DNA of 64,000 bases from a virus: the IMG/VR virus record IMGVR_UViG_3300017917_001996, positions 1-64,000 of that record; one strand, written 5' to 3'. Positions 8,456 to 49,126 of the stretch are shown in pieces. Under the pieces are notes generated by a model. That model was given only the letters and a program-made list of their open reading frames with translations, did no database searches and was not told the DNA's origin. The translations under genes were made by a program, and so were the position numbers. Positions within the stretch are counted from its first letter, which is position 1; the number at the start of each line of letters is the position of its first letter.

Positions 8456-8929
8456 GTGAAGAAAATAGTTACGATTTTGCTTTTTGTGCCCGTGCTAGCG
8501 CAAGCTGAACTAGTTCAACAATTCAAAAATCCTGCTTTTAGCGGCATTGGTTGGTCAAGCCATGCACTAACGGTAGACAGTATCGAAAAAAGTCGTAGAG
8601 ACACTATAGAAGCAGACAAAAAAGCCGCTATTGCCAAAGCCGAAGCAGATTTATTAAATACGCCGTTAAATAGGTTCATGAGCCTATTCCAGAGTCAAGT
8701 TTATGCACAACTTGCTACTCAATTAAGTAATAACTTATTCCAAAACAAATGTGCAGCCGCAGATGGCGGTAGTATTCCTGGTTGTGTAAATCCAACTACA
8801 GGAACATTTAATTTGGATGGAAATACCGTCACTTGGACAAAAGCCAATGACAAAGTTACATTAACTGTAGTTGATGCTAAAGGGTCAGTGACTACAGTCG
8901 TGGTACCAATTGCAAGTTTTGGATTCTAA
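8456..8929 (+). CDS. csgF: Curli assembly protein CsgF
   Basis: A 157-residue secreted protein. An N-terminal signal peptide (KKIVTILLFVPVLAQA) would be cleaved before ELVQQFKNPAF, which matches the mature CsgF start (E-L-V-x-x-x-x-N-P-x-F) that inserts into the CsgG pore. A coiled helical segment (IEADKKAAIAKAEADLLNTP) and LFQSQVYAQLATQLSNNLF follow, then a C-terminal beta domain ending in VVVPIASFGF. CsgF docks on the CsgG channel and couples it to nucleation of curlin at the outer surface. The start is GTG behind a strong GGAGG. It is first in the curli cluster, 8 nt before csgG. Confidence 0.87.
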   Translation: MKKIVTILLFVPVLAQAELVQQFKNPAFSGIGWSSHALTVDSIEKSRRDTIEADKKAAIAKAEADLLNTPLNRFMSLFQSQVYAQLATQLSNNLFQNKCAAADGGSIPGCVNPTTGTFNLDGNTVTWTKANDKVTLTVVDAKGSVTTVVVPIASFGF

Positions 8930-8937
8930 GGAGTACT

Positions 8938-9807
8938 ATGAAAGCATTTAAATTAAGTATTGTATCCTTAGCCATGCTAGCATTGGTAGGGTGTTCTACA
9001 GTGCGTCCATTGGGCAGCACAGATATCAGTAAAGAAGCCAAAGTATCAGAAACTATTAACAAAACGTTTTCTGTAGTTCCTACGCCAGCTGGGCCTCCAG
9101 TTGTAGTAGCGGTCTATGGTTTTACTGATAAAACTGGACAACGTAAGCCTAGTAATACATTAAGTTTGTTTAGCACTGCGGTAACACAAGGCGCAGAAAG
9201 TTATTTGATTAAGAGCCTACAAGAAGTGGGCAACGGATCTTGGTTTACTGTTGTTGAGCGTGTAGGCTTAGATAACCTACTCAAAGAGCGTCAAATGATC
9301 AAACAAACTCGCGAGATCTATGACGGAGACAAGGCCAAAATATTGCCTCCGCTAACATTAGCTGGTGTTATACTAGAAGGTGCTATTGTTGATTATAACA
9401 GCAATACATTAACTGGCGGCACTGGTGCTCGTTGGTTAGGCATTGGTCCTTATACACAGTATACTCAAGATTTAGTTGTTATTAGTCTAAGATTAATTAG
9501 TGTACAGTCTGGTGAAGTACTAACTACTGTTACAGTTGAGAAAAACCTACTAAGCACCTCTGATGGTGTCACTGCATTGAAATTCTTCAATCAATCGACT
9601 CGTGCGTTTGAGTTTGACAGCAGTCAAACATATAACGAACCTGCTAACTATGCACTTCGATCAGCAGTTGAAACAGCAATTGTAGAATTGATACGCAAAG
9701 GTGAGCGTCAAGGGCTTTGGAAGTTCAAGGAGAAACCAAATGAGCTGGTACAAAAGAACACCCAAGTTGAAGGAGCCGCCCAAGCATCTCCCGCATCACA
9801 GAAATAG
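8938..9807 (+). CDS. csgG: Curli secretion channel lipoprotein CsgG
   Basis: A 289-residue outer-membrane lipoprotein. The lipobox LVGC puts the acylated Cys at residue 19. The CsgG core is clear: VVVAVYGFTDKTGQRK, FTVVERVGLDNLLKERQ, LAGVILEGAIVDYNSNTLTG, RLISVQSGEVLTTVTVEK and a C-terminal helix VETAIVELIRKGERQGLWKF. CsgG forms a nonameric export channel for unfolded curlin; the transmembrane hairpin (GGTGARWLGIGPYTQYTQDL) and plug-loop region are present. The C-terminus is slightly longer than in E. coli and overlaps a small gene in another frame. Isolated CsgG homologues are known in some marine phages, but here it comes with CsgF and curlins. Confidence 0.95.
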   Translation: MKAFKLSIVSLAMLALVGCSTVRPLGSTDISKEAKVSETINKTFSVVPTPAGPPVVVAVYGFTDKTGQRKPSNTLSLFSTAVTQGAESYLIKSLQEVGNGSWFTVVERVGLDNLLKERQMIKQTREIYDGDKAKILPPLTLAGVILEGAIVDYNSNTLTGGTGARWLGIGPYTQYTQDLVVISLRLISVQSGEVLTTVTVEKNLLSTSDGVTALKFFNQSTRAFEFDSSQTYNEPANYALRSAVETAIVELIRKGERQGLWKFKEKPNELVQKNTQVEGAAQASPASQK

Positions 9808-9898
9808 TCCAATAGCAGAAAAAATTAAAGAGGAAACACAAAATAAAGTAAGAGCATCAAGTAATAGCTCGGGCCCTAAAAAGAAACCTAAGGGGTAA
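9740..9898 (+). CDS. Small basic phage protein overlapping the csgG end
   Basis: A 52-residue protein starting MSWYKRTPKLKEPPKHLPHH, with ATG 9740 behind AAGGAG. A longer in-frame start at 9701 lacks such a site. The 5' 68 nt overlap the csgG 3' end in another frame. The sequence is Pro/Lys/Ser-rich with no predicted fold. Small proteins beginning M-S-W-x-K-x-x-P-x-x-K-x-P-P, with a later HHRSSPxxEK-like stretch, recur in T4-like phages from memory, which suggests it is a resident phage gene between which the curli genes were placed. Function unknown. Confidence 0.55.
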   Translation: MSWYKRTPKLKEPPKHLPHHRNSPIAEKIKEETQNKVRASSNSSGPKKKPKG

Positions 9899-9903
9899 AG
9901 AAA

Positions 9904-10716
9904 ATGAAAAAGACAATTTTAGCATTAATGTTAGGAGCAGTATTTCCAGCATTTGCACAAACTGCGGTGCAGTCACCTGCTAACCCTACCATTCCAACTA
10001 TGGTAACAGTAAGTCCAAATGCAACCGCAGCCTTGGCAAATACTACAACTAACCGTATTTTTATCGACCAAAGCGGCGATAATCCTAATGTCAATATGAC
10101 GCAAGACGGTAGCGGTAACAAGGCAGGCAGTGCTGCCCGCCCAATTTATCTACGTGGTATCAACCAAACAGTTGTTACACGTCAAATTGGCGTAACCAAT
10201 GAAATTAATTTAGAAGTAGTTAACCCAACAGTAGCCGATACTACACCAAATGTAGTAACTGGTGCTACTGTTACTATTCAACAAATCGGCGACAGTAACA
10301 AAGTTGACGCAGCCTGCGGTTATGGCACATTAAGCAATGGTACCACAAGCATTGCTGGGGGAACCGGTTGTAAAGCCTTGGATGTTAACTGGAAATTTAC
10401 CGGCGATAGCAATGAAATTCAATTCCGTGGAAACGGAACAGATATCAAGAGTGCAATCGATGTTCAAGGTGATACCAATAAGTTCTACATTGATGTAATG
10501 GGTGACAAGCACACACAAACCATCAAGGTAGTTGGCGACACTAACACCTTCCATATTAACCAAGCAAGCACTGGTTCTAGTGGTAGTAGCATTTGGGTCG
10601 ATCTTGCTGGCAACAGCAACAACTTGAATATTAGCCAAATTGGTACAGTTGATAATGTGCTAAACATTAAGAGTGTATCTAACAGCGGTACGTTTAATAT
10701 TACACAGAAAAACTAA
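9904..10716 (+). CDS. Curlin-repeat amyloid subunit (CsgA/CsgB-like)
   Basis: A 270-residue secreted protein with a signal peptide ending AFAQ. The mature chain carries repeated curlin-type units with Q/N/G spacing: DQSGDNPNVNMTQDGSGN, TVTIQQIGDSNKV, NLNISQIGTVDNVLNI and FNITQKN. The alternation of polar x-Q-x-G-x-x-N steps forms the beta-arcades of curli amyloid. It is longer and less regular than E. coli CsgA (151 residues). A cysteine pair (AACGYG, GTGCKA) sits in an insert. It lies 5 nt after a small gene and directly before fecR; a hairpin spans its stop codon and the fecR start. Probably the major or nucleating fibre subunit. Confidence 0.83.
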   Translation: MKKTILALMLGAVFPAFAQTAVQSPANPTIPTMVTVSPNATAALANTTTNRIFIDQSGDNPNVNMTQDGSGNKAGSAARPIYLRGINQTVVTRQIGVTNEINLEVVNPTVADTTPNVVTGATVTIQQIGDSNKVDAACGYGTLSNGTTSIAGGTGCKALDVNWKFTGDSNEIQFRGNGTDIKSAIDVQGDTNKFYIDVMGDKHTQTIKVVGDTNTFHINQASTGSSGSSIWVDLAGNSNNLNISQIGTVDNVLNIKSVSNSGTFNITQKN

Positions 10717-10747
10717 GAGGGTATACCATGAGGTTACCCCTCTTAGT
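10712..10747 (+). promoter_or_regulatory. Hairpin enclosing the fecR-like start codon
   Basis: ACTAAGAGGG (10712-10721) pairs perfectly with CCCTCTTAGT (10738-10747). The GAGGG Shine-Dalgarno is in the stem and ATG 10728-10730 lies in the loop, so the RNA could hold the ribosome site closed. It also includes the stop codon of the curlin gene, so translation of that gene could open it. Confidence 0.6.
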
Positions 10748-11831
10748 CGCTGGACTATTCCTTTCAATATCGGCGTGGGCTGGAATAGGCTCTGTTACCG
10801 ATTTAACTGGTGCCGCTCAAATTAAGCGCGGTAAGGAAACTATTACGGTTTCAAAGGGCACCGCTATTGAAATGAATGACAAAGTTGAGACTAAAAACGG
10901 TAAATTAACTATCGTTTTTAAAGACGAAACAAATGTCAAGGTCAGCGAACATAGCAGTTTAGTGATTGACGATTTTGTCTACGATCCTAAAAGCGGCAAA
11001 GGTTCTTTAGCAATGAAAGCAGCCGGCGGTGCTGTGCGTTATACATCTGGCGCACTGGCCAAAGACCCTAAGCAAGTTAAAATAAACACACCTACTGCGG
11101 CTATTGCTGTGCGCGGCACAGATTTTGTTATGGCCGTTAACGAAGTAGGATCTAGCGTCATAGTACTGATGCCCACTTGCGATTGGGAAACTAGTTCGGT
11201 CAAGGGTGTTACCTGCGGTAGCAGTGGACGCATTGATGTTGAAAGTGGAACAAAAACTATTACATTAGATAAGGCATACGAAGCCACGGTAGTTGAAACA
11301 CTCGGAGCTCCACCGAGTCCTCCAATGATTGTTAGTATGAGTCAAGGTAATATAGGAACAAACTTATTAGTCAGCGAACCAAAAACTGCCAGTGGACGAT
11401 CAGTGGTTGCTGCTGCTAGGGCTGCAATGGATAAAACTGACGATAGTAAAAAAGATGATGCAGCCAAAGAAGAACAAAAGGTTGCTAGTAAAAGCACTGA
11501 TGAATCCAACAAACGATCTGCAGGCAGTGAAGACACATCTACAGTTAAAGTTGTTGTTGATACCACAAAGTTAGGTATAGATGTTGGCGATAGTACCAAA
11601 GAAAACCCATATGTACATAAGATATGGAAGGACAAAAGTGAGACGCAACAAATCGGCTGGCAATACGAAAGTTTGAGTCAGAACGGGAACAATTATACAA
11701 ACATTACTCTGCCTTTAGACACTAAGGTTTTGGTTATTGTAACGCAAGACAGAATTACAGATGCTTATAACTTTAACACGCAGAGCACTAAATCCTACGG
11801 ACAAATTGTTATTAATCAAACATACAGATGA
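10728..11831 (+). CDS. FecR-domain periplasmic protein
   Basis: A 367-residue secreted protein: signal peptide ~1-18 (LLVAGLFLSISAWA), then a FecR domain ~19-190 with GSVTDLTGAAQIKRG, AIEMNDKVETKNGKLTIVF, VSEHSSLVIDDFVYDP, GGAVRYTSGALAK and TPTAAIAVRGTDFVMAV, the most conserved FecR core. The C-terminal half is a Lys/Asp/Ser-rich linker and a small beta region. FecR domains sense or scaffold at the envelope. In many proteobacteria a FecR gene lies next to a CHASE2-cyclase gene, as here 2 kb downstream. It overlaps the next gene by 4 nt and its start is buried in a hairpin. Confidence 0.87.
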   Translation: MRLPLLVAGLFLSISAWAGIGSVTDLTGAAQIKRGKETITVSKGTAIEMNDKVETKNGKLTIVFKDETNVKVSEHSSLVIDDFVYDPKSGKGSLAMKAAGGAVRYTSGALAKDPKQVKINTPTAAIAVRGTDFVMAVNEVGSSVIVLMPTCDWETSSVKGVTCGSSGRIDVESGTKTITLDKAYEATVVETLGAPPSPPMIVSMSQGNIGTNLLVSEPKTASGRSVVAAARAAMDKTDDSKKDDAAKEEQKVASKSTDESNKRSAGSEDTSTVKVVVDTTKLGIDVGDSTKENPYVHKIWKDKSETQQIGWQYESLSQNGNNYTNITLPLDTKVLVIVTQDRITDAYNFNTQSTKSYGQIVINQTYR

Positions 11832-13384
11832 TAAAAATATTATTTTCATTGTTATTATTGTTTAGCGGTATCGCCCATTCACAGAACATAGGGTTCGAAT
11901 CCGGTAATCTTTCAAACTGGACCACTTCGGGAACAGATGCAACAGTTAGCACCGGACTAAACAATGCCTCCTACGGTGGTGGTCTAACATGGACCATTAA
12001 GCCATATGGAACATACATGGCTCAGCTATATCCTAGCGGCAGCGTACAGTTCGACGGCGCTACCAGTAGCCTAGGTCTTACTAGCGCAGACAATACTGCC
12101 ATTAGAAATTTCATGACTGCCAACGCAGGTGGCGGCAGCCCTACTCCAACAAATGCAACCTGGATCAAAAGAACTGTAACGTTACAGGCAGGAACTACCT
12201 ACAGTTTTGCTTGGAACTATCTGTCTACAGATTATACACCATTTAACGACGGTTCAATGATCACCTTGGTACACACCACAGATGCCACCAAGATACCAAC
12301 ATTAAACAATGAGCAGAAAAGATATGCCTTACTAGGATTTACTAACCCTGGCACAGGAAACTATTCCACAGGCAGCTATGGTAGCACCGGTTGGCAGTTA
12401 GCAGTGTTTACTGTGCCAGTAACCGGCGACTACGTACTTGGATTTGCTACTTTTAACCTAGGCGATACTGCTCTAAGCCCTATGTTGTTCATTGATGAAC
12501 TACAAGGTGTTACAGAATTAAACGGACAGACTTTTGCTCCTATCGCTCCTAACGCAGGTAGTAGCGCACCAGTCACCGGAGGTGGCAGTAGCGAACCTAC
12601 GTACACATCTGACATAACTCCAGCACAAACATTGATTCTCAACAATGCAAGAACTAGACAAAATGCTATCACTTCAGGTAACAGAATTGACTTGTACAGC
12701 GATGGTTCTGGCAACAGCGTTACTATAGAGCAAGTAGGAAGTTATAACAGAATAAAAGGCCTTGGTACTGCACAAAATGCACACGTAGCAGGCTTTGGTA
12801 CCGCTGTAGACATCAAACAAGGCGAAGTTGGTGCTACCAGGAATCTAATAGAATTGTATGTACAAGGTAATGGCAACAACGTAACTTTAAGTCAAGCCCG
12901 AAATACTTCAACAGGTCTGGTCGATGGTGCAGAAAGTGGAGGGCATTATATGGGGTTGTCTCTAACTGGTGACATCAACTCAATAACCATTCGCCAGGGT
13001 AACGACGGTGGCAGTAACAGCGGTCACTTTACCTTACAAACTATCACAGGCAATTTTAACAACAGCACATTAAATCAAAGTAACAACGGCGAAAAACAAG
13101 CATTTATTAGTATAGACGGTAGCAGTAACAACAGCACCGTAATACAAAGTGGTACTGGTAATCATTATTTAGATTTAACCCTGACAGGAAACGGTAATAG
13201 TGCCAGTGTTACACAAAAAGATTCGGGTAGCCATAAGGCCACAATCAACTTATCTAATGTAGGTGGGCCAAGTTCGGCAACCGTAGTACAACAAGGTAGC
13301 ACCAATCAAGTCTACAATATTAGTCAACAATGTGCTACACTATCAGGGTGTTCTGTTAGTGTTACTCAAGGAACCGGGCCATGA
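11828..13384 (+). CDS. Large secreted protein with C-terminal curlin repeats
   Basis: A 518-residue secreted protein. The signal peptide (~1-18) ends AHSQ. Residues ~20-235 look like a PEP-CTERM/NF-type beta-sandwich adhesin head (IGFESGNLSNWTTSG, GWQLAVFTVPVTGDYVLGF, MLFIDELQG). Residues ~275-518 are at least eight curlin-type units (GSGNSVTIEQVGSYN, QGNGNNVTLSQARN, GSSNNSTVIQSGTGN, GNGNSASVTQKDSG). This joins a folded surface domain to an amyloid-forming tail, an arrangement not found in CsgA or CsgB, and suggests a fibre-anchored display head. It overlaps fecR by 4 nt and the next small gene by 4 nt. Confidence 0.78.
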   Translation: MIKILFSLLLLFSGIAHSQNIGFESGNLSNWTTSGTDATVSTGLNNASYGGGLTWTIKPYGTYMAQLYPSGSVQFDGATSSLGLTSADNTAIRNFMTANAGGGSPTPTNATWIKRTVTLQAGTTYSFAWNYLSTDYTPFNDGSMITLVHTTDATKIPTLNNEQKRYALLGFTNPGTGNYSTGSYGSTGWQLAVFTVPVTGDYVLGFATFNLGDTALSPMLFIDELQGVTELNGQTFAPIAPNAGSSAPVTGGGSSEPTYTSDITPAQTLILNNARTRQNAITSGNRIDLYSDGSGNSVTIEQVGSYNRIKGLGTAQNAHVAGFGTAVDIKQGEVGATRNLIELYVQGNGNNVTLSQARNTSTGLVDGAESGGHYMGLSLTGDINSITIRQGNDGGSNSGHFTLQTITGNFNNSTLNQSNNGEKQAFISIDGSSNNSTVIQSGTGNHYLDLTLTGNGNSASVTQKDSGSHKATINLSNVGGPSSATVVQQGSTNQVYNISQQCATLSGCSVSVTQGTGP

Positions 13385-13605
13385 TTGACTGGTCATTGTC
13401 TGCAGATTTGCAAACAAAATACAATGACATTCTAGAACGAAATAGAAAACTCCAACTTGAGTTGGGCATAGTTCCTAGAACATTAGAACAACGTGCTCAA
13501 GATTACGAAAAGAAAAAACTAGAACGAGAACAGGCTGCACAGGAGTTAGCTAGATTAAAAGCACTAACTGCCAATAGAAGACCACCGCCACGCTGGAAAG
13601 TGTAA
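13381..13605 (+). CDS. Small coiled-coil protein
   Basis: A 74-residue cytoplasmic protein, helical and highly charged (LQTKYNDILERNRKLQLELG, EKKKLEREQAAQELARLKAL), ending in a basic Pro-rich tail RRPPPRWKV. No family recognised. ATGA overlap with the curlin-repeat gene upstream makes it part of the same operon. It could be a resident phage gene, like the small protein at 9740. Function unknown. Confidence 0.6.
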   Translation: MIDWSLSADLQTKYNDILERNRKLQLELGIVPRTLEQRAQDYEKKKLEREQAAQELARLKALTANRRPPPRWKV

Positions 13606-13627
13606 ATACTATTTTAAGGAGAACACC

Positions 13628-13918
13628 ATGCGCCAATTACTTTTAGGTGTTCTACTATTACCCGCTATCGCATTTGCTGAGCCTGTAACCGTAGAAAAAC
13701 CTGTAGTCTGCGAAAAAACAAAAATTCTAATAGAAGTGTTATCTGGTAGTGATTATAAAGAAGTACCGGTCTGGACAGGTCGCGACGACACCAGCAGGTA
13801 CAGCATCTTTGCCAATGAAAAGACCGGGTCCTGGACCATTATACAATTTAATGCAAATATTGCTTGCGTTTTAGGATCAGGTGAAGGACACAACTTCGTA
13901 AAGAAAACCAGAGTTTAA
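13628..13918 (+). CDS. Small secreted protein, function unknown
   Basis: A 96-residue protein with a signal peptide ending AFAEP (MRQLLLGVLLLPAIAFA). The mature ~80 residues carry two Cys (VVCEKTK and NIACVLG) that could form one disulfide, and a beta-rich body (SGSDYKEVPVWTG, GSWTIIQFNANIACVL). A strong AAGGAG precedes the start. It sits in the curli cluster just before the cyclase; a periplasmic curli accessory role (as CsgC or CsgE have) is possible by position, but no similarity to either is visible to me. Confidence 0.6.
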   Translation: MRQLLLGVLLLPAIAFAEPVTVEKPVVCEKTKILIEVLSGSDYKEVPVWTGRDDTSRYSIFANEKTGSWTIIQFNANIACVLGSGEGHNFVKKTRV

Positions 13919-13933
13919 GCAGTTTTTCATAGC

Positions 13934-13939
13934 TAAATA
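13934..13939 (+). promoter_or_regulatory. T4-late-type TAAATA box
   Basis: GCTAAATA ends 7 nt before ATG 13947. There is no Shine-Dalgarno in the 30 nt upstream. Confidence 0.4.
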
Positions 13940-13946
13940 TTAGACT

Positions 13947-16007
13947 ATGAAAAAAATCTTGCTAAATCCGTGGACAGCATTAGTTACCCTAATTGTTGTT
14001 GCACTAATTCGTTTCTTTGATCCTGCATTTGTTGAATCGGTAAGACTACGTTATTTTGACCAGCTCGTTGTAGGACAACCTGCTACGGAAATTCCTGTAG
14101 ACGTCGTTAACATTGACGAAGCCACCTTAGACAAATACGGACAGTTTCCTTTTCCTCGGGACATATACGCAAAAATAATACAGGATTTATACAAACGCAA
14201 TGCTGGCTTGGTTGTGTTTAACGTAATGATGCCTGAAGCAGATCGTTTTAAACAAGATCCTGTACTGGCACAAACACTAAATCAATATCCAGTTGTTTTA
14301 CCTAAGTTAGCACATACCAAGCAAAAGAATAAAGACCTAGGTAGTGCAGTACAATTATTAGGACAAGATCCCAGTGGGCGCATAGTAGAGTACCCTGGGC
14401 TAATCAACAACGTTCCTGCACTCGAAGAGATTGCTGCCGGAGTCGGTATCGTAAACACATTCCCAGAAATCGACGGCGTTCTACGTCGTATGCCATTAGT
14501 TGTTATGACCGGTAACGGTAATGTACATCCTGCTATCGCCCTTGAAGCATTGCGAGTGGCAGCAGGTGATGATAAGGTGCAGGTTAAGATCGGGGATGTT
14601 GGTGTCGAAGCTTTACGTGTTCCAAAATTTGGACGCCTTGACACAGATAACCTAAGTCGCATCTGGATTGATTGGAGTAAAAAGCCTGCTGAATACAGTC
14701 TAATGAATTTACCTGCAAGTTTTGATAACAAGATTGTTATTGTTGGACTAAGCGCACAAGGACTAGTAAATCCGATTGCTACTGCTCGCGGCGAAGTTTG
14801 GCCTCATAACATGCAAGCCAGCGTTATGGGTACACTGTTAACCAACACCAACATACAAAGACCAGGTTATGCCGACAACTTAGAACTAGCGTCAATTGTA
14901 ATTGCTGGTATTATTTTAATCTTTTTAATGAGGTGGACTTATGTTGGTATCGCTGCCACTGTGGTTACGATTGGTGGTGTTATTGCTGGTAGCATGTATG
15001 CTTACAGTAATTACTTATTCTTATTCGATAGCACTGCCTTTGCAGTTGGCGTGGGCCTGGTCGCTCTGCACGCCTACATGGTAAAGTTTGTTAGTGAGTT
15101 CTTACAGAAGCAACAGATTAGAAAACAATTCCAAAGCTATCTAAGTCCTGACTTGGTTGCTAAACTAATCAAAGATCCTAGCCTATTAAAACTAGGCGGC
15201 GAAGAAAAAGAATTAAGTATCATGTTCACAGACGTTCGTGGCTTTACCAGCATCAGCGAACACTACGGTAAAGACGTACAGGGTCTAACAAGCATCATGA
15301 ACAGATACATGACTGCTATGACTCGTACCATTTTAGAAACAGGCGGTACACTAGACAAGTATATCGGTGATGCACAGATGGCTTTCTGGAACGCACCATT
15401 GGATGAAACAAAGCACTGTAAAGATGCTGTTGAAGCAGCATTACAAATGTTAGGAAGTTTAGATGGATTTAATAAGAGCATTAGTGATGAAGGTGTTCCT
15501 CCCTTTGGGATGGGCATTGGTATTAATACCGGCGTTGTTGTTGTTGGGAATATGGGCAGCGAGCAACGTTTTGATTATACTTGCCTCGGCGATGCTGTCA
15601 ATCTCGCTTCGAGGCTTGAAGGCCAAAGCAAGAACTATGGCGTACTCATTGTCTTGGGACCGATCACAGCAGAAAGACTAGGCGACGAATACTTTACCCT
15701 CGAACTCGACTGTATTGCTGTTAAGGGTAAGAAAGATGGTGTAAACATTTTTACAGTATTCTACAACCCAGATAACGAAGTTGAAATGGTTAAATGGAAG
15801 ACTGCCAGAGAATTACACGACTTAATGTTAGCGCACTATCGCCGTCAAGAATGGGATAAAGCCGTTGCTCTGTGCAATGAGTTAAAAGGTGAATTCAATG
15901 GTGGCATGGACCACTATTACGAGCTATGGCTAGAAAGAATCGAGGGGATGCAAAATGCAGGTTTACCGGCTGATTGGGATGGAATTTTTAGGGCGCAATC
16001 GAAGTAA
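13947..16007 (+). CDS. CHASE2-domain class III adenylate/guanylate cyclase
   Basis: A 686-residue membrane protein. A TM helix (~9-23) is followed by a periplasmic CHASE2 sensor (~30-305: VDVVNIDEATLDKYGQFPFP, RDIYAKII, FDNKIVIVGLSAQGL), three TM helices (~314-330, 333-351, 356-378), a short linker, then a class III cyclase domain (~420-600). Metal-binding Asp429 lies in MFTDVRGFTSISE and Asp475 in LDKYIGDAQMAFW, with CLGDAVNLASRLEG and VKGKKDGVNIF also present; catalytic residues look intact. The DKYIGDA context favours ATP as substrate, making cAMP. Its length is that of ordinary bacterial CHASE2 cyclases. It ends the curli/FecR module and would link an envelope signal to cyclic-nucleotide levels in the infected host. 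Very unusual in a phage. Confidence 0.9.
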   Translation: MKKILLNPWTALVTLIVVALIRFFDPAFVESVRLRYFDQLVVGQPATEIPVDVVNIDEATLDKYGQFPFPRDIYAKIIQDLYKRNAGLVVFNVMMPEADRFKQDPVLAQTLNQYPVVLPKLAHTKQKNKDLGSAVQLLGQDPSGRIVEYPGLINNVPALEEIAAGVGIVNTFPEIDGVLRRMPLVVMTGNGNVHPAIALEALRVAAGDDKVQVKIGDVGVEALRVPKFGRLDTDNLSRIWIDWSKKPAEYSLMNLPASFDNKIVIVGLSAQGLVNPIATARGEVWPHNMQASVMGTLLTNTNIQRPGYADNLELASIVIAGIILIFLMRWTYVGIAATVVTIGGVIAGSMYAYSNYLFLFDSTAFAVGVGLVALHAYMVKFVSEFLQKQQIRKQFQSYLSPDLVAKLIKDPSLLKLGGEEKELSIMFTDVRGFTSISEHYGKDVQGLTSIMNRYMTAMTRTILETGGTLDKYIGDAQMAFWNAPLDETKHCKDAVEAALQMLGSLDGFNKSISDEGVPPFGMGIGINTGVVVVGNMGSEQRFDYTCLGDAVNLASRLEGQSKNYGVLIVLGPITAERLGDEYFTLELDCIAVKGKKDGVNIFTVFYNPDNEVEMVKWKTARELHDLMLAHYRRQEWDKAVALCNELKGEFNGGMDHYYELWLERIEGMQNAGLPADWDGIFRAQSK

Positions 16008-41703: not shown

Positions 41704-41728
41704 ACGAACTTGTATTTGCCAAAAACAA

Positions 41729-41734
41729 TAAATA
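41729..41734 (+). promoter_or_regulatory. T4-late-type TAAATA box
   Basis: AATAAATAT with TAAATA ending 7 nt before ATG 41742, directly after a terminator. No Shine-Dalgarno. Confidence 0.5.
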
Positions 41735-41741
41735 TAATACT

Positions 41742-43667
41742 ATGTTTCTTAACGACTTATACGAAAACGTTGAAACCATGGACACTTTAGTGGTGTACCC
41801 TGGTAGATTCCAACCCTGGCACAGAGGACACCACGAAGTTTACAATTATTTGGTTAAAAACTTTGGACGTGATAGGGTATTCATTGCAACCAGCAACAAA
41901 GTAGAACCTCCTCGCAGTCCATTTAGTTTTGCAGAAAAAGTGCAGTTTATGCACTTTACTGGCATACCCAATGATGTAATTGTTGAGGCTAGGGATCCTT
42001 ATAAAGCAGTAGAACTAACTAGCAAATACAATCCTAAAACTACAAGATTAATTTTTGCTGTTAGCCAAAAGGACATGGACGAAGATCCACGGTTTACGTT
42101 TGGTTACAAAAAAGATGGTTCTCCAACTTACCTCCAAGATATGCCCAAGAATGCATATCAAATGCAGAGCCTAGAGTCACATGCATATATAATGGTTGTG
42201 CCCACATTTCCGTTTAAGATATTAGGGAAAGATGTTGAAGGCGCAACAGACATTCGTAGAATGTTTTCAGAAGGCGACGAGCAAACACAACAACAAATCA
42301 TTATAGATTTATTTGGTAGATACAGTCCCGATATCCATGCTTTAATGAAGAACAAGATTACATTAAATGAATCGATGCAATCCGACAAGTCGCAGGATAT
42401 GTTGATGCGAATTAAAAAGCAAATCGACCAGAATCGTGCAGCAACTGCTGCCCAACGTCAAGCAGAGTTAGCCCAATGGGAACAAGATTTTAAGCAAAAC
42501 ATGGCGTCTAGGTACAGAACAGTAAGGCAGCCCGAGTTAACACAAACTCCAACACAAATTGCTGCACCTATAGAAAAACATTCTGTATTACAGACTAGAA
42601 TGGCTAACCTTAATAAGGCTATCGAAAAAACAAATATCCTCAATGCACTAATCTCCAAGGCAGAGCAAAGAGGTTTAATGACCCCAGGATTACGTGCAGA
42701 CACAGATATTTCTTTGTACGTTAGTAATGCTGCTCAAGACAACTATGTAGGACTAAACCAAAAGTTAGATAAGTCAATTGAATTAGTTAAACAAGCGTGG
42801 AATGCTAAAAAATTAGCCTACTCTAAGCCAAAGAGCAACATGCGCGAACAGGAATTAGATGAAGGCCTTGGTGATTACTTTAATAAATTAAAATCATTTG
42901 TGCTAAAAGTCTTAGGCAAAAAAGTTAGTAAGACACCACAGGATGCAGCCGCATTCCAACGAATGATGAGCAAAATTACTGCTCCAGTTGATACTGCACA
43001 ATACGGAAGACTTTGGCAGGAATATAAATCTAATTCACAATATAATGTTCCTATTCCGAGGCCCGAAGATCTTGATAATCCTCAAGTAATGTATCTATGG
43101 TCTAACAGTATAGTCCAGTTTGTCATGAACAAGTTTCCGGACACACCAGTAGACGTACTTAAACAAACAGTAATCGGATTGTCTATGTTTGCAGTTAATG
43201 AATATAGAGCAAAATACCGTAACAACGACATCAGCGAGGAAAACGATTCCTATAGACCACCGGGCGCTAGTCGATCACAAACTGCGGCAGTAATGAACAA
43301 AATGCACCCTGCTGAAAAATTTGTTTGGAAACGACCAAACCAAATTGGAGGTAGTTTTAGCGAGCAAGAGCTATTGGCAAAAGGATTTAAAAAATCACAA
43401 TATAATAGCTGGGGCGGTACACCCACAATGTGGCGGAACCTACTAGGTGTAAAAGAAACCGTACTAAATCAACCTACACCTACACTTAGAGATTTAATTA
43501 AAAAATACCCTAATGTGCCCTTAGAAAAACTGCGCCACGAACTTCAAATAGGTGTGCGTGTAGAATATGAGCATACTAAAAATGCTCGGACTGCCACAGA
43601 AATAGCACTAGATCATTTAAATGAAAGGCCAGACTACTATACAGTCTTAGCCAAAGTAGGCCTATAA
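41742..43667 (+). CDS. NMNAT-like nucleotidyltransferase with long C-terminal extension
   Basis: A 641-residue protein from ATG 41742; the open frame reaches back to 41355 inside the glycosyltransferase gene, but a terminator separates them. Residues ~14-200 form a nucleotidyltransferase Rossmann domain: VVYPGRFQPWHRGHHE (H-x-G-H at 27-30), FIATSNKVEPPRSPFSFAEK, and VEGATDIRRMFSEG in place of the I-S-x-T-x-x-R motif. NadM/NadR-type enzymes make NAD from NMN. The next ~440 residues are helical and Gln-rich, without known domains, but contain E-L-D-E-G-L and L-N-E-S, like the protease sites of the downstream proteins. It opens the packaged-protein cluster behind a late-type box. Confidence 0.75.
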   Translation: MFLNDLYENVETMDTLVVYPGRFQPWHRGHHEVYNYLVKNFGRDRVFIATSNKVEPPRSPFSFAEKVQFMHFTGIPNDVIVEARDPYKAVELTSKYNPKTTRLIFAVSQKDMDEDPRFTFGYKKDGSPTYLQDMPKNAYQMQSLESHAYIMVVPTFPFKILGKDVEGATDIRRMFSEGDEQTQQQIIIDLFGRYSPDIHALMKNKITLNESMQSDKSQDMLMRIKKQIDQNRAATAAQRQAELAQWEQDFKQNMASRYRTVRQPELTQTPTQIAAPIEKHSVLQTRMANLNKAIEKTNILNALISKAEQRGLMTPGLRADTDISLYVSNAAQDNYVGLNQKLDKSIELVKQAWNAKKLAYSKPKSNMREQELDEGLGDYFNKLKSFVLKVLGKKVSKTPQDAAAFQRMMSKITAPVDTAQYGRLWQEYKSNSQYNVPIPRPEDLDNPQVMYLWSNSIVQFVMNKFPDTPVDVLKQTVIGLSMFAVNEYRAKYRNNDISEENDSYRPPGASRSQTAAVMNKMHPAEKFVWKRPNQIGGSFSEQELLAKGFKKSQYNSWGGTPTMWRNLLGVKETVLNQPTPTLRDLIKKYPNVPLEKLRHELQIGVRVEYEHTKNARTATEIALDHLNERPDYYTVLAKVGL

Positions 43668-43678
43668 TTTAAAATTAA

Positions 43679-43684
43679 TAAATA
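43679..43684 (+). promoter_or_regulatory. T4-late-type AATAAATA box
   Basis: TAAATA 21 nt before ATG 43706, at the head of the putative internal-protein operon. Confidence 0.45.
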
Positions 43685-43705: not shown

Positions 43706-44110
43706 ATGAAACCAACAGATTTTATCCCAGAAAAGCACCATATTGGCCAAGCTGCTATGGATATGCATGTCGATCATGAAATACAAATGGCTAGAGAAAA
43801 CTGCTACAATGCAGCTACTAACGCCATTGAATTACATCGTATGCTTAAAAAGGTAAGCGAACAAGAGGGACTAGACGCATGGGCTAGTGAAAAACTCAGT
43901 CTAGCCAACGATTATCTGCGTACAGTAAAAGAGTGGCTAGAGTATGAAATCATGAGTAAGATGGAGACGCAAATGGCCGAAGAAACTTTTGATGCACAAG
44001 TTGTCGAATTTGCTTCAGCCGGTGCAGGTGCAGTTGGAGGTGTTGCCACAGCGCCAGGCACCGCCGGAGAACTGTTTGGTGGTAAAAAGAAAAAGGCAAA
44101 AACAAAATGA
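43706..44110 (+). CDS. Putative capsid-internal protein with CTS-like leader
   Basis: A 134-residue protein starting M-K-P-T-D-F-I-P-E-K. This fits the pattern M-[KR]-x3-F-[IL]-x-E of the T4 internal-protein capsid-targeting sequence (IPIII begins MKTYQEFIAE), which the prohead protease cuts after Glu. The body is helical with a central HHIGQAAMDMHVDHEIQMAR and LHRMLKKVSEQEGLDAWASE, and a Gly/Ala-rich then Lys-rich tail ending GGKKKKAKTK. It overlaps the next gene by 4 nt. Packaging into the head is inference from the leader and neighbours. Confidence 0.65.
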   Translation: MKPTDFIPEKHHIGQAAMDMHVDHEIQMARENCYNAATNAIELHRMLKKVSEQEGLDAWASEKLSLANDYLRTVKEWLEYEIMSKMETQMAEETFDAQVVEFASAGAGAVGGVATAPGTAGELFGGKKKKAKTK

Positions 44111-44544
44111 AATCTACTAGCTTTTTATACGAAGGCGCACGCCTAGTTGCACAACAAAATTTCGGAAATCGTGCTGTTAAAATCTACCGCGATGTAGAAT
44201 GGAACGAGTTTATTGTTAAATTTTTTCTAAACGGTGAACATCAAATTGAAGCCGATTATCATACTAACGAAAAAGATGATGCGCTTTCAACCGCACAAGG
44301 TTGGTTAAGAAAAGGTTCTGATGTTAGCGGTCCGGCTACTGAATCAGAGTTAGAAGAAGTTGTAATTCCTCCAACACCCGGGGGTACTGCTGCTGCACCT
44401 ACAGCCAATGCTGCACCAACATCGCAGGGTGCAGTACAATCTAAACCAATAACACCACAAGGAGTTGATGCACTGGCACAGATTATAAAGAGTGCTGGTT
44501 TAAATCCTAGTCAGTTAAACACTGTTCTTTCCAAAGCAAAATAA
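44107..44544 (+). CDS. Putative capsid-internal protein with CTS-like leader
   Basis: A 145-residue protein starting M-K-S-T-S-F-L-Y-E-G, again the M-[KR]-x3-F-[IL]-x-E leader, with Gly after the likely cut. The next ~70 residues are a small alpha/beta fold (RAVKIYRDVEWNEFIVKFFL, DDALSTAQGWLRKG), followed by a Pro/Thr/Ala-rich linker and a helical end (GVDALAQIIKSAGLNPSQLN). It contains a further L-E-E-V. ATGA overlap with the upstream gene; 11 nt before the large polyprotein gene. Confidence 0.65.
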   Translation: MKSTSFLYEGARLVAQQNFGNRAVKIYRDVEWNEFIVKFFLNGEHQIEADYHTNEKDDALSTAQGWLRKGSDVSGPATESELEEVVIPPTPGGTAAAPTANAAPTSQGAVQSKPITPQGVDALAQIIKSAGLNPSQLNTVLSKAK

Positions 44545-44555
44545 TAAGGCTTACT

Positions 44556-47500
44556 ATGTTTGTATTTGATTTATTTAATAAAAAAGTTTCTGAAGCCGAG
44601 CGACGTCCTGAGCCTGAACAAGAAATCATTGATGCCACACGTCGTGCCAGACAACAACAAGAACGCGAACCAGCTGGCAGTGAAAAGATTGACGCAATGT
44701 TGGCGCAACAACATGCACAGCGCCAGGAATACGAAAGAACTGGTAATTTCTGGCTAAAGACCAAAGTTGAACAACGTCATATCCAAGGTCCTTTTGTAGG
44801 CAAGGCTGCTGCTAATACTGCGGCTTTGGAATTATTAAAACAGGCGCCAGAGCTAAAAGGAAACCTATTAATTACTGCCTACGGCCCAGGAGAACAGCAA
44901 AATGAAAATATCGACGAAGGCAGTTTAGTTGCCTTTGAAAAAGATCCTTTTGAGCGTTGGAAAAAAACTGTAGCTATGGTCAATCCTAACATAGGAAAAA
45001 ATTTGACTTTCGTTTCTAAAGAGAATGGAAGAAAAGTTGTTGCTATGGATCGTTTTTCAAGAATTGTCTACGGCGAATTTAATACTCAAACCATGAAGGG
45101 TCAAGTCTTTGATGTTACCGACGGCGACCTAGCCGAGGAAAAAGTTCGCTTAGATCCTAGCTGCTGGAAGAACAAAAAGATCGGCAATCCCAAGACCAAG
45201 ATGAAGGGCGGTGTTAGGGTTAATAATTGTGTGCCTGCAGAAAGTGTAACAGAAGGTTTTGACAATTATCTAGATAACGCTATATACGATCTAGGTATGA
45301 GCAAACCAGGTATGGATCAAGAAACTTTCCTTGACGATCTTTATTCCTACTTAGATGCTGAATATGGTAAAAATGTAGCAGATCGAGTATTCTATCGCGA
45401 AGACGAAAATGAATATGCTGAGTGGTACGACAAATATCAAAGTCTAGATGAAGGTGTAGCGGAAGGATTGGGCAAAGACCTAAAGCGTTTGGCTACAGGA
45501 AAAGATGTAAAAAGTCGTTCTGGACAGGAGATTGCTAAAGCACAGCAAGCCAGTATGACAGGTGATAACAAAACCGCACACAAGCACTTCAAGCGTTATG
45601 ACAAGTTAGACAAGTTGGCAAATAAAGAGCAAGGTGTGGCTGAAGGCTATCCTAAACATCAAGACCTAAGTGCTATACCTACAGAAAAATTGATGGCATT
45701 TCTTGAAAAACATGCAGGTGGAGGTGTCCCAACATTTGGTCAAGGGGCACAAGTTCGCCGTGTTTATGCAGAACTAAAGCGTAGACAGCAAGGTGTGGCG
45801 GAAGGTGGCTATCAAGATGATAGTAAAGAGAGTGAAGAAAATTTAAGATACGCCCGCACTCGCAATCCTGTTGCCGATGTGATTCGCAAGAAATTAAATC
45901 CTAATCAGAAACCAGAAAAAGAGCAAGGTGTGGCGGAAGGCTTGAGCAAGCGTGACCAACAGGATGTGGCTGCTATCCGTGCTGCTATTGCGAGATTAGA
46001 GGCACAACTAAATCACCCTAATGCTGATCGTGATGCTATCCTGCAAAGTATTGCCCACGAGAAGAAGCGTCTAGCATTGTACGGACAGGATGTGGTGGAA
46101 GGCTCTGATCCCTTTACAGATGGATACAATGCTTGGCAGCAGTACCTAAATGGTAAAACAAATCGTCGCCCTACAAATCCTTACCCAGCCGGACATGGTA
46201 TGGGTCAATGGGAAGCAGGAGCGGCCAAGGCTGCCGAAGGACACGACTTTGGCCAAGATGATAGTAGGTATGATGTGGCTGAAGACCAAATCAACGAATC
46301 TCCTACTATTGATTTCATCAGAGGGTTGATCTCTGAATTCAATAAACAAATGAGCGGTAGCCCATACTATCCAATGGATTATAAAAATCCCGGCATGAGA
46401 ATGTGGACTCGCGGTGATGGATCTAAATATAAAGATCCTGGATATATTTTTATTGACCGTGATTTGAAGCCAGAAGATATACCCAAGTGGCAAAAAGCAG
46501 GTGCAGTGGAAAAGTTTTGGAAGTTCTTAGAGTCCAAAGGTGCTCGTAAGATAGGTGATGTTTCTGGCGAGTTTGGCTCAGACCCACACAGTCCTGCTAT
46601 AGTATTGAACAAGTTGATTTTTGTATTCAACGGTCGTAGCATTGCCTGGGGGTCAACCAGCAGACTAAAGAACTCCAATGTGTGGCGTCAGAAACAGCAA
46701 GGTGTGGCGGAAGCAGGCGTGAAACAATTGCCTACTCAAGGTGCAGATTATAGCAAATACGATACTGACCATTTGAAAATGATGTTGCGACCAGGTATCT
46801 TACATCGCAATGAAGCAAGATTCAAATCACTAATTCGTAAAGAATTACAGAAGCGTGAACAGCAAAGTCAACAAGGTGTGGCGGAAGTCTCGGAACAAAA
46901 ATATGTCGTTACTATTGACGCCATCGACCATGGCGTATTAGGAGCAATAACGGTTACTGCTAGTAGCCCAGAAGAAGCAAAAAGAAAAGTTGTTGCTGGT
47001 GTTAAGTCATCAATGTTAAAGCGCGGATATGAATTGATGGTACGCAGTGTGAGTGTAAAACCAGTGGAAGATGTAGCGGAAGAAGACAAAAGTCAAGTAG
47101 AAAAACTAAGAATGCAAGATTATTTAGATCGTGCTGATCGTTTACACGACGAAATAATGACCCTACAACGCTCCGGAAATCTTGAGGCACTAAAGCATTT
47201 AAAACAACAATATTATGAACTAGAAGCACAAGCAAGAAAGGGATTAGTTCCAGAAGAATCTGTTACTGAAGCAGGTACCCCAGCAGATCAACCACGTATT
47301 CGTAAGTATTCTAAGATACGTGCAGATGGATCCAAAGCCGAACGATACGAAGTACTTGACTACCAAGGTCGTCGAGTTGCCGGTCAAGGATCAGAAGGCT
47401 TTGACGATCTCAAAAATGCCAAAGAGTTCTTCAGAAGAAACTACAGTCGTTTAATTAACCCAATCGACGAGGAAGTCTTAAAGACTAAAGAAAAGAAAAA

Positions 47501-47615
47501 AGAACGAGATGATCCTGCACATCCTGGTAAGAAGATGTTAGAGTCTAAGAAGCGTTATTGGTGTTCAACCGAGAAACGTTGGAAAGAGATGGAAGAAAAC
47601 AAGGAGAGCAACTGA
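44556..47615 (+). CDS. Modular polyprotein with repeated GVAE|G sites (putative packaged proteins)
   Basis: A 1019-residue hydrophilic protein built of unrelated short modules joined by recurring linkers: GVAEG near residues 300-304, 360-364, 413-417, 458-462; GVAEA near 716-720; GVAEV near 774-778; related VSEA (10-14), IDEG (to 122), VTEG (to 234), VVEG (to 516), AAEG (to 562), VAEE (near 840) and VTEA (near 903). T4 prohead protease cuts after [I/L]-x-E; these sites look alike. The module at 516-561 (FTDGYNAWQQYLNG, NPYPAG, W-x2-G-x3-A) resembles ribosome modulation factor. Modules before the third and the sixth sites look paralogous (KLMAFLEKHAG/LKMMLRPGIL, ending KRRQQ/KREQQ). It lies in a CTS-leader gene cluster and overlaps dps by 1 nt. 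Cleavage and packaging are inferences. Confidence 0.7.
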   Translation: MFVFDLFNKKVSEAERRPEPEQEIIDATRRARQQQEREPAGSEKIDAMLAQQHAQRQEYERTGNFWLKTKVEQRHIQGPFVGKAAANTAALELLKQAPELKGNLLITAYGPGEQQNENIDEGSLVAFEKDPFERWKKTVAMVNPNIGKNLTFVSKENGRKVVAMDRFSRIVYGEFNTQTMKGQVFDVTDGDLAEEKVRLDPSCWKNKKIGNPKTKMKGGVRVNNCVPAESVTEGFDNYLDNAIYDLGMSKPGMDQETFLDDLYSYLDAEYGKNVADRVFYREDENEYAEWYDKYQSLDEGVAEGLGKDLKRLATGKDVKSRSGQEIAKAQQASMTGDNKTAHKHFKRYDKLDKLANKEQGVAEGYPKHQDLSAIPTEKLMAFLEKHAGGGVPTFGQGAQVRRVYAELKRRQQGVAEGGYQDDSKESEENLRYARTRNPVADVIRKKLNPNQKPEKEQGVAEGLSKRDQQDVAAIRAAIARLEAQLNHPNADRDAILQSIAHEKKRLALYGQDVVEGSDPFTDGYNAWQQYLNGKTNRRPTNPYPAGHGMGQWEAGAAKAAEGHDFGQDDSRYDVAEDQINESPTIDFIRGLISEFNKQMSGSPYYPMDYKNPGMRMWTRGDGSKYKDPGYIFIDRDLKPEDIPKWQKAGAVEKFWKFLESKGARKIGDVSGEFGSDPHSPAIVLNKLIFVFNGRSIAWGSTSRLKNSNVWRQKQQGVAEAGVKQLPTQGADYSKYDTDHLKMMLRPGILHRNEARFKSLIRKELQKREQQSQQGVAEVSEQKYVVTIDAIDHGVLGAITVTASSPEEAKRKVVAGVKSSMLKRGYELMVRSVSVKPVEDVAEEDKSQVEKLRMQDYLDRADRLHDEIMTLQRSGNLEALKHLKQQYYELEAQARKGLVPEESVTEAGTPADQPRIRKYSKIRADGSKAERYEVLDYQGRRVAGQGSEGFDDLKNAKEFFRRNYSRLINPIDEEVLKTKEKKKERDDPAHPGKKMLESKKRYWCSTEKRWKEMEENKESN
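45630..46887 (+). repeat. Dispersed 16-bp repeat CAAGGTGTGGCGGAAG
   Basis: The linker DNA recurs at 45630 (one mismatch), 45789, 45924, 46698 and 46872, the last four identical. All are in the same codon frame and encode Q-G-V-A-E. Identity at synonymous positions shows recent copying, so the linker is a recombination point for swapping modules. Confidence 0.88.
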
Positions 47616-48049
47616 TGGAAGAATTACAAAAGGCAGCAAAGATTGCCTTTGCCAGCGAATTTAGTTTTTATTTAAAGGCACATCAGTTTCACTGGAATGT
47701 TGAAGGCATCAACTTCAAACAACTGCACGACTTGTTTGGCGGCATCTACGAAGAAGTATATGATAGCATTGACGACTTTGCTGAAAAGATTCGTAGCCTT
47801 GGTACCTACATGCCGGGCAGCTACACTCGTTTTAGTATGCTAAGTAAAATAGAAGACGAAACTAATATCCTTGACAGTCAAGGTATGTTAGCTGAGTTAG
47901 CCGGCGACAACGAAAAAATGATCAAAATTTTTAAAATGGTTTTTGACCTGAGCGAAGCTGCTGGCGAACACGGTTTTAGCGATTTCGTTGCTGGCCGCAT
48001 GGATGCACATCGCAAACATGGTTGGATGTTAAAAGCTAGTTTAAAATGA
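47615..48049 (+). CDS. dps: Dps-like ferritin-fold protein
   Basis: A 144-residue four-helix-bundle protein. ATG 47615 follows AAGGAGAG and overlaps the polyprotein stop (TGATG). The Dps ferroxidase motif is present: LKAHQFHWNVEGINFKQLHD (His23, His26, His38) with YEEVYDSIDDFAEKIRSLG supplying the acidic ligands. Dps proteins oxidise iron with H2O2 and coat DNA. Phage copies are known in marine phages. It lacks the F-[IL]-x-E leader of its neighbours, so packaging is less certain for this protein, but it sits inside that cluster. It overlaps the metallopeptidase gene by 4 nt. Confidence 0.88.
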   Translation: MEELQKAAKIAFASEFSFYLKAHQFHWNVEGINFKQLHDLFGGIYEEVYDSIDDFAEKIRSLGTYMPGSYTRFSMLSKIEDETNILDSQGMLAELAGDNEKMIKIFKMVFDLSEAAGEHGFSDFVAGRMDAHRKHGWMLKASLK

Positions 48050-48441
48050 GAGCTAAAGAGTTTTTATACGAAGGTCGCGAGCATTACCCGCAGGTTCATG
48101 CTGCAATTAGGGACTTACTTCCTATCGCAATGGAGGAACTAGGCCTTAAAGATCTTCCTAAGATTAAAATTGAAAAATCTTTAAACTTTAGCGGGCAACC
48201 TAGCTTTGGTGCTTACACAGGCGCAGATATTCAACTAGGTATTAACGGACGTCATCCAGTAGATGTATGCCGCACTCTTGCACATGAACTAGTCCACTAC
48301 AAACAAAAACTCGATGATAAACTAAACGCAGAATCCGGTACAACTGGTAGCCCAGAAGAAAACGAAGCCAACAGCGTTGCCGGTGTTATCATGCGTAAAT
48401 TTAGCAAACAATTTCCACGTTACATAAACAATGAGAGTTAA
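48046..48441 (+). CDS. HExxH metallopeptidase with CTS-like leader
   Basis: A 131-residue protein. The N-terminus M-R-A-K-E-F-L-Y-E-G repeats the packaged-protein leader. A zinc-metallopeptidase motif HELVH lies at 80-84 (TLAHELVHYKQKLDD), with Glu107 in EENEANSVAG as the probable third ligand, as in small M48/SprT-like or gluzincin enzymes. Length is minimal for a peptidase domain. If packaged and injected it would be an early-acting host-protein protease, comparable in timing to T4 Alt (inference). Overlaps both neighbours. Confidence 0.75.
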   Translation: MRAKEFLYEGREHYPQVHAAIRDLLPIAMEELGLKDLPKIKIEKSLNFSGQPSFGAYTGADIQLGINGRHPVDVCRTLAHELVHYKQKLDDKLNAESGTTGSPEENEANSVAGVIMRKFSKQFPRYINNES

Positions 48442-49126
48442 AGATTTTAAAAATGAAATCGCCTACCATAGCCAGCTTAACTCTAAAGCCTGGGCAGGTA
48501 CTCAGCTACGCCCAGAAGTTAGATACAAACTTCTACAAGCTGCAAAATTGTTTATAAGTTATCTTGATATCAAAGGTTTTCGTGTTTTGGATGTAGTGTT
48601 AGCTGGAAGTATGGCTAATTACAATTATACTGACTATTCCGATTTTGATGTTCACGTTGTTACTAGATACGCAGACTTACAGTGCGACGACTTAGCCGAA
48701 GCATTCTATCGTGCTAAGAAACAGTTATGGAACGAACAACACGATATAGTTATACGTGGGCACGAAGTAGAACTGTATGTAGAAGATGTTGAGCAACCTC
48801 CGGTTAGTGCAGGTGTTTACAGTATTCTAGATGACAAGTGGTTAACAGAACCCAAATACAATCCACCAGAAATTAACCGTCCTGCAATTAAGCTAAAGGT
48901 ACAGGACTTAATTAAACAAATCAACGACACATTATCAACTGCCGACGATCCCGCAGACATTCGTCGCATTGCTGATAAAATCGGCGACATGAGAAAATCT
49001 GGATTAGCCCGCGGCGGCGAATTCAGTGTAGAAAACTTAGCATTCAAGGTTCTAAGGAACCAAGGATATATCGATCGTTTGTACAAAGAGTTCAATCGTC
49101 AACAAGACATTGACCTTAGTATCTAA
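48431..49126 (+). CDS. Pol-beta-superfamily nucleotidyltransferase
   Basis: A 231-residue protein. The nucleotidyltransferase signature VLAGSMANYNYTDYSDFDVH gives G59-S60 and Asp71/Asp73, with a further acidic position in HEVELYVEDV near 115-120. A C-terminal helical half (NLAFKVLRNQGYIDRLYKEF) follows. Related phage and toxin-antitoxin enzymes transfer AMP/UMP or other nucleotides to proteins or RNA. The N-terminus M-R-V-K-D-F-K-N-E-I is close to the CTS pattern but has Lys in place of Ile/Leu, so processing is uncertain. It overlaps the metallopeptidase gene by 11 nt. Confidence 0.75.
   Translation: MRVKDFKNEIAYHSQLNSKAWAGTQLRPEVRYKLLQAAKLFISYLDIKGFRVLDVVLAGSMANYNYTDYSDFDVHVVTRYADLQCDDLAEAFYRAKKQLWNEQHDIVIRGHEVELYVEDVEQPPVSAGVYSILDDKWLTEPKYNPPEINRPAIKLKVQDLIKQINDTLSTADDPADIRRIADKIGDMRKSGLARGGEFSVENLAFKVLRNQGYIDRLYKEFNRQQDIDLSI

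Follow-up and report, generated by a model that had tools for sequence, protein, structure and literature searches.

A probable head-cargo operon with a modular polyprotein in a giant T4-like phage from IMG/VR

Introduction

The internal proteins IPI-IPIII and Alt of phage T4 carry a capsid-targeting sequence that is cut by the protease gp21 (PMC9026906, PMC9958956). Cleavage follows L/I-x-E, and within the targeting sequence residues 4 and 7 serve targeting and residues 8 and 10 cutting (PMC9026906). We analysed a window of 64,000 bases (bases 1-64000 of the 250,289-base viral record IMGVR_UViG_3300017917_001996, here L009, the remainder of which was also examined) with an operon at 43706-49126 that includes a gene for a modular polyprotein (44556..47615). 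Judged by sequence, its leader genes share features of the T4 internal proteins: a leader of about ten residues ending in F-[IL]-x-E, a gp21-type protease, T4-type late promoters and small, variable cargo. Unlike in T4, several leader genes and a long chain of modules form one operon, and whereas T4 internal proteins are cut at the leader only (Alt also at the C-terminus), candidate sites recur along the chain. By analogy, the operon would work as the capsid-targeting system of T4 does, applied to a whole chain. We consider it probable that the operon is expressed late and encodes head cargo, that gp21 cleaves its leaders, that the polyprotein is cut and ejected, and that modules are exchanged at a repeated 16-mer.

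Polyvalent proteins, for which injection with the DNA has been proposed (Iyer et al. 2017, PMC5512222), resemble the chain in that a single polypeptide combines a large number of unrelated domains (HExxH peptidase, Pol-beta nucleotidyltransferase, GNAT, ParB-like); at the level of the family, polypeptides with at least two unrelated functional domains occur here. The part of that source consulted ascribes processing to built-in zincins and does not describe repeated short sites between modules, whereas in our case near-identical short head-protease-like sites part most modules and would double as exchange points. Inner-body and ejection proteins of phiKZ and SPN3US are likewise Glu-cut head cargo of a gp21-related protease, sometimes with several propeptide sites (PMC5694885, PMC9026906). 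They differ in motif (S/A-x-E or A-x-E, as opposed to V/I/L-x-E here) and in that propeptides are removed, no chain of separate modules being described. The T4-GC119 proteins of marine cyanophages (Syn9 gp114, P-SSM2 123, S-SM2 109), encoded between gp15/gp16 and gp17, have modules in common with the freshwater polyproteins, and several contain [VIL]xE/[GE] sites (the stroke marks the predicted cut); unlike the polyprotein here, those examined lack the exact QGVAE repeat, and no publication on their function was found. In T4-type gp38 adhesins, glycine-rich motifs are conserved linkers and in-frame exchange points between variable segments; gp38 is a tail adhesin and is not known to undergo proteolysis.

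The polyprotein and its candidate cleavage sites

The polyprotein has 1,019 amino acids (aa) and, like all genes, promoter elements and sites of the locus given below, lies on the + strand. It begins with the leader MFVFDLFNKKVSE/A and is built from about 13 modules, each 45-143 aa long, with sites of the form [QED][GD]VxE/[GAED] at the joins. The tetrapeptide GVAE occurs six times against 0.02 expected from shuffling and is absent from every other predicted gene of the record, and [VIL]xE[GA] occurs 11 times against 2.1. Sites end, among others, at residues 13, 121, 194, 233, 299, 303, 363, 416, 461, 515, 576, 719, 777 and 842. Exact copies of the 16-mer CAAGGTGTGGCGGAAG encode QGVAE/G at residues 416 (45789..45804) and 461 (45924..45939), QGVAE/A at residue 719 (46698..46713) and QGVAE/V at residue 777 (46872..46887). 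Further copies of the 16-mer encode EGVAE/G at residue 303 (45450..45465) and QGVAE/G at residue 363 (45630..45645); two with three mismatches encode QDVVE/G at residue 515 (46086..46101) and EDVAE/E at residue 842 (47067..47082), and another site copy reads SVTE/G at residue 233 (45240..45255). The sequence QGVAE/G nearly fits the L/I-x-E pattern after which T4 gp21 cleaves.

Two sub-regions, residues 455-845 and 1-469, were folded with AlphaFold (12 and 8 sequences deep), because a whole-chain MAFFT alignment misplaced many fragments. In these models 6/6 and 9/9 tested sites are predicted to lie in stretches with a predicted local distance difference test (pLDDT) score below 50 between helices or small domains, a placement matched by 3/390 and 1/468 circular shifts, respectively. 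Site 461 is covered by both models, which makes 14 different sites in total. A fold search with the first model returned nothing significant; the P74-26 portal-vertex protein matched one small domain (probability 0.98, E 0.17), which is only a lead. The window's own polyprotein had no match in a Pfam search, and basic charge, as a sign of DNA-associated cargo, was not marked in the modules.

Leaders, head protease and late promoters

Three leaders named in a first-pass annotation of the window open real open reading frames (ORFs): MKPTDFIPE/K in a small protein (43706..44110), MKSTSFLYE/G in a second protein (44107..44544) and MRAKEFLYE/G in a HELVH zincin-like metallopeptidase (48046..48441). 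That annotation had also proposed a genome-wide search. With the strict pattern ^M[KR].{2,4}F[ILVMYF].E, applied to every ATG, GTG and TTG opening a frame of at least 50 aa in the whole record, the form proved confined to these three N-termini. Aligned at the Glu, the leaders of the cluster agree with the rules of the T4 capsid-targeting sequence. A looser form, [FY][ILV]xE ending at residue 7-13, occurs at nine N-termini against 1.5 expected from internal windows of the same genes (standard deviation 1.2, maximum 4). Additional leader-like N-termini, absent from the first-pass annotation, lie at record positions 204076, 213093, 214812 and 224024. It had also passed over the repeated QGVAE/G sites and the adjacent gene 41742..43667 for a cytidylyltransferase/NMNAT-like protein (MFLNDLYE/N). 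The leaders of 41742 and 44556 end in LYE and VSE, both without the F of the T4-type leader.

A fourth leader, MRVKDFKNE of the Pol-beta type nucleotidyltransferase (48431..49126; phrog_36119), had been proposed and does not hold. Its start is off the protease rule, with K at P3 where a gp21 site needs Leu or Ile, and an [ILVF]xE leader is missing in 15 of the 17 homologues listed (e.g. MNVNDFVKGN, MNLKELNSFKL). The Dps-like protein of the cluster (47615..48049) is a true Dps by its matches to Pfam Ferritin (1.9e-19) and PDB Dps chains (to 3e-27), as annotated, but it has no leader and its assignment to the cargo is not supported; Dps copies adjoining polyproteins in about 50 relatives' loci are likewise without one. 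The F-[IL]-x-E leader thus belongs to 43706, 44107 and 48046, and not to 48431 or Dps.

The record is that of a giant T4-like phage and encodes a T4-type head module. This comprises a T4-type portal (record 124074), a gp21-type protease (126937-127572; PF03420 at 127018-127434, E 9.3e-24; phrog_207, 9e-56), a scaffold with 18 [VIL]xE sites (127584-128681) and a major capsid protein (128709) with a plausible LTE/S site at residue 42. The prohead protease that the earlier proposal called for is hence present. Of 18 records with a polyprotein, eight have a complete T4-type capsid gene, and every one of these eight encodes an S77 protease.

Among 7-mers in the stretches ahead of genes, none is enriched more strongly than ATAAATA (28 occurrences, 1.0 expected), which forms the core of the T4 late promoter. 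Among its matches, the T4-type late promoter element AATAAATA precedes gene 41742 (41727..41734) and the 43706-49126 operon (43677..43684). The late expression typical of T4 internal proteins is thereby predicted from [AT]ATAAATA ahead of 41742 and 43706. From 43706 to 49126, successive genes are separated by short gaps or overlap.

As the leading alternative, the operon's own HExxH metallopeptidase (48046) might process the polyprotein instead of gp21, either in the virion or post-injection, the chain then being a polyvalent protein. Zincin-like peptidases are proposed as processors of polyvalent proteins (PMC5512222), a zincin gene lies in the operon, and zincins are fused to polyproteins in the loci L036, L086 and L126. 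We nevertheless consider this improbable, as the sites are similar to gp21-type protease sites and to sites in the phage's own scaffold, and as the leader of the zincin itself ends in a gp21-like site.

The sole experimental support for head cargo comes from cyanophage S-SM1, whose purified virions were found to contain the T4-GC190 protein as well as gp21 (Sullivan et al., PMC3037559); this attests presence, not cleavage. T4-GC190 is a cytidylyltransferase with the leader MKKFSAFLNE/A. Other cyanophage cytidylyltransferases begin with MKKFSAFLTE/A, MKNFHQFITE/A or MKLFNQFFKE/A, and that of an Escherichia giant phage starts right at the catalytic domain, with no leader.

The first-pass annotation had concluded that the phage preloads a set of enzymes into its head. 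Preloading itself is favoured by the leaders, the protease, the portal, scaffold and LxE-bearing major capsid protein, the T4-type late promoters, the retention of leaders in close homologues of 43706 and 48046, and the virion-borne cyanophage cytidylyltransferase (PMC3037559); it is not supported for 48431 as a cleaved protein or for Dps. The phrase "set of enzymes" is too narrow, as the principal cargo appears to be the modular polyprotein, mostly small domains of no recognised type. A wholly different reading is that the N-termini are shared by common descent or represent a generic start, and that the polyprotein acts in the infected cell. The cluster adjoins replication genes rather than head genes, and the head cargo of this phage is predicted from its genome. 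Late promoters, head protease and the virion-detected leader-bearing cyanophage protein make this reading very improbable, as does the fact that cyanophages encode relatives of the polyprotein (T4-GC119) between gp16 and gp17.

The 16-mer at the DNA level

The 16-mer occurs in at least 120 viral stretches. In 111 of 112 occurrences (80 loci) it is read in frame as QGVAE within long ORFs, which rules out a non-coding mobile element. With up to three mismatches it is found ten times in the record, nine of them in the polyprotein gene and all on the same strand. Codon use was compared at those QGVAE sites that had not been picked by the search pattern: Ala is encoded by GCG in 68% (7% elsewhere in the same ORFs), Gly by GGT in 100% (47%) and Val by GTG in 62% (19%). 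The synonymous positions of the 16-mer are constrained. Where two chains share a module, 64% of the identical residues have the same codon, as against 92% within the site; this contrast is partly inflated by the retrieval of most loci through the 16-mer.

Nucleotide homology between chains breaks off at the same place. Counted on loci not found through the 16-mer, 32 of 47 homology ends fall between -3 and +6 bases of its last base (0.9 +/- 1.5 expected), 19 of them exactly on that base. Module 720-777 is common to many loci and the match stops in nearly all at gene base 2332, the last base of the 16-mer at residue 777. Module 417-461 is 98% identical to L030 and the identity stops at gene base 1384, the end of the 16-mer at residue 461, where homology with L029 stops as well; that with L065 stops at the copy at residue 515. 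L036 and L086 share 99% identity as far as base 307, where the 16-mer of each ends; different modules follow, and identity then returns to 98%. No open-access paper naming QGVAEG or describing the repeat was found.

Such conservation and sharp junctions would also suit the site of a dedicated recombinase or homing nuclease, the peptide being a by-product of the reading frame. This appears very improbable, given the single frame inside long ORFs and the occurrence of the 16-mer outside the gene only once in the record, even with three mismatches allowed. Codon-level conservation and exact junctions are DNA features, and linkers are predicted to be disordered in any case; QGVAEG might serve solely as a flexible linker and a seed for recombination, with a beads-on-a-string chain that is packaged or used uncut. 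This is unlikely in view of the diverged copies, which retain V-x-E as other letters vary (QDVVE, EDVAE, SVTE), of P1', occupied by G or A at 162 of the 224 GVAE sites, and of the same bodies being found after cleavable-looking leaders.

Proposed head cargo in exchangeable cassettes

The sequences contain the leaders, the protease, the late promoters, sites in predicted linkers, an in-frame 16-mer and junctions at its end; that the proteins are packaged, cleaved and ejected, and that recombination produced the junctions, is what we propose. Short leaders ending in [IL]xE (43706, 44107, 48046, 41742) or, in the polyprotein, VSE would guide the proteins into the prohead core, and the gp21-type protease would cleave after the leader Glu during head maturation. 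The polyprotein would enter the head as a single chain and be cut at its VxE/G sites into about a dozen small domains, which may be ejected along with the DNA. The 16 bases of CAAGGTGTGGCGGAAG would also act as a homology seed for the in-frame exchange of whole modules between phages, so that cargo could be gained, lost or reordered with packaging and processing undisturbed. Head cargo released by gp21 in exchangeable cassettes is the simplest account of leaders, protease, promoters, linker sites and codon constraint.

Several observations weigh against this account. The P3 residue of the internal sites is V, whereas T4 prefers L/I (PMC9026906), and the AlphaFold models are shallow (8-12 sequences) with a mean pLDDT of about 57. 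Finding most loci through the 16-mer inflates its apparent conservation, although loci found by other means still support it. Seven of the 11 homologues of 41742 have no leader, and 41742 and the virion-detected S-SM1 protein are related at the superfamily level only (25% over 57 aa). Lastly, no protease was detected in ten of the 18 polyprotein records; since in nine of these no capsid gene was seen either, and in the tenth just a fragment of one, they may be incomplete or divergent and hence do not discriminate between processing by the zincin or by gp21.

Chances appear even that one 16-base sequence is selected twice, as head-protease codons and as homology seed, a single gene thereby forming a cassette array of packaged effector modules. 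We are equally divided over whether such an array, its modules passing in frame from phage to phage and being freed by a single protease, is the protein-level counterpart of a gene-cassette system. If the account holds, QGVAE/G together with the 16-mer would be a signature by which possible early-delivered proteins of uncultured T4-like phages could be found by the hundred, most of them with no known function. It would also explain rapid change of cargo without breaking capsid assembly, and offer a natural design for multi-protein delivery from a single gene in T4-type particles.

Genes of the locus and their homologues

The cytidylyltransferase 41742 affiliates to Pfam CTP_transf_like (4e-6) and has a C-terminal DUF5661 (1.5e-10); four of its 11 homologues carry leaders (MFVNELFE/S, MFVSELFE/D, MYAHELYE/A, MFINELLE/S). 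Distant homologues of the cluster proteins are frequently without a leader, and close relatives keep its form with different letters. Homologues of 43706 occur either alone with a leader (MKTTDFITE/N, MKSLDFLNE/G, MNSKQFLKE/G) or as a module within VAE polyproteins, as in L083, where the body begins immediately after DVAE; one body thus follows a leader in one phage and VAE in another. No relatives of 43706 were found in cultured phages, apart from a weak module match in S-SCSM2R (E 7e-6).

The body of 44107 corresponds to phrog_7884, which is also present in T7-like Pseudomonas phages, in one of them with the leader absent. Its last 47 residues (about 70% identical) terminate an otherwise different protein in L033, so that C-terminal tails are also shuffled. 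The metallopeptidase 48046 matches the phrog_87 metallo-protease (0.0026), its homologues have the leaders MRARELLKE/S and MNYKQFLRE/S, and no relatives were found in the PDB. Homologues of the nucleotidyltransferase 48431 are N-terminal domains of VAE polyproteins, and the 43706, 48046 and 48431 proteins all recur in other loci as parts of polyprotein chains.

Related chains in other loci

Single modules of the polyprotein recur at up to 94% identity in 14 IMG/VR loci, whose chains are otherwise different. Across the family, internal modules have a median length of 77 aa. Recognised types include GNAT, deaminase, ParB-like, nucleotidyltransferase, LysM and SutA-type RNA-polymerase-binding modules, and the majority is unassigned. 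Multi-domain chains combine nucleotidyltransferase with ParB (L077) or with deaminase (L073), and GNAT and CTP_transf also occur in the family. A direct search among 50,697 cultured phages found no relatives of the polyprotein, nor were any found in cellular genomes; the modules of a relative match 363 cyanophage records.

A 471-aa phrog_13484 protein (record 218791-220206; virion structural) occurs as a module in five polyproteins. It ends in KRLAGLA and the scaffold in RRLAGLR, possibly a shared core-binding tail.

Other observations in the record

Just upstream of the large terminase, at record 213093-215030, the leader-like N-termini MKPFAQYLHE, MDFAKILAKLDSFESKQNLNE/G and MKSFKQYLAE/A form a group near the T4-GC119 position of cyanophages. 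The large terminase itself (216087-218758) is encoded in two parts that flank an HNH-type gene (217030), and the end of the first part (CLCGSSLIKI...) looks like the start of an intein.

At 6538-7932 of the window, an AhpC/TSA peroxiredoxin is encoded near an AhpD-like (CMD family) protein, which together with the Dps-like gene 47615 suggests an oxidative-stress set. A curli-like set at 8456-16007 comprises CsgF (Pfam 7.6e-11), CsgG (1e-48), a FecR-domain protein, a curlin-repeat protein and a protein with CHASE2 and adenylate/guanylate cyclase domains, which is surprising in a phage. Finally, HNH-type genes at window positions 16034, 17744 and 62075 and at record position 217030 have the common start HTHHIIPRHMGG / HHIIPKHAGG and probably encode homing endonucleases.

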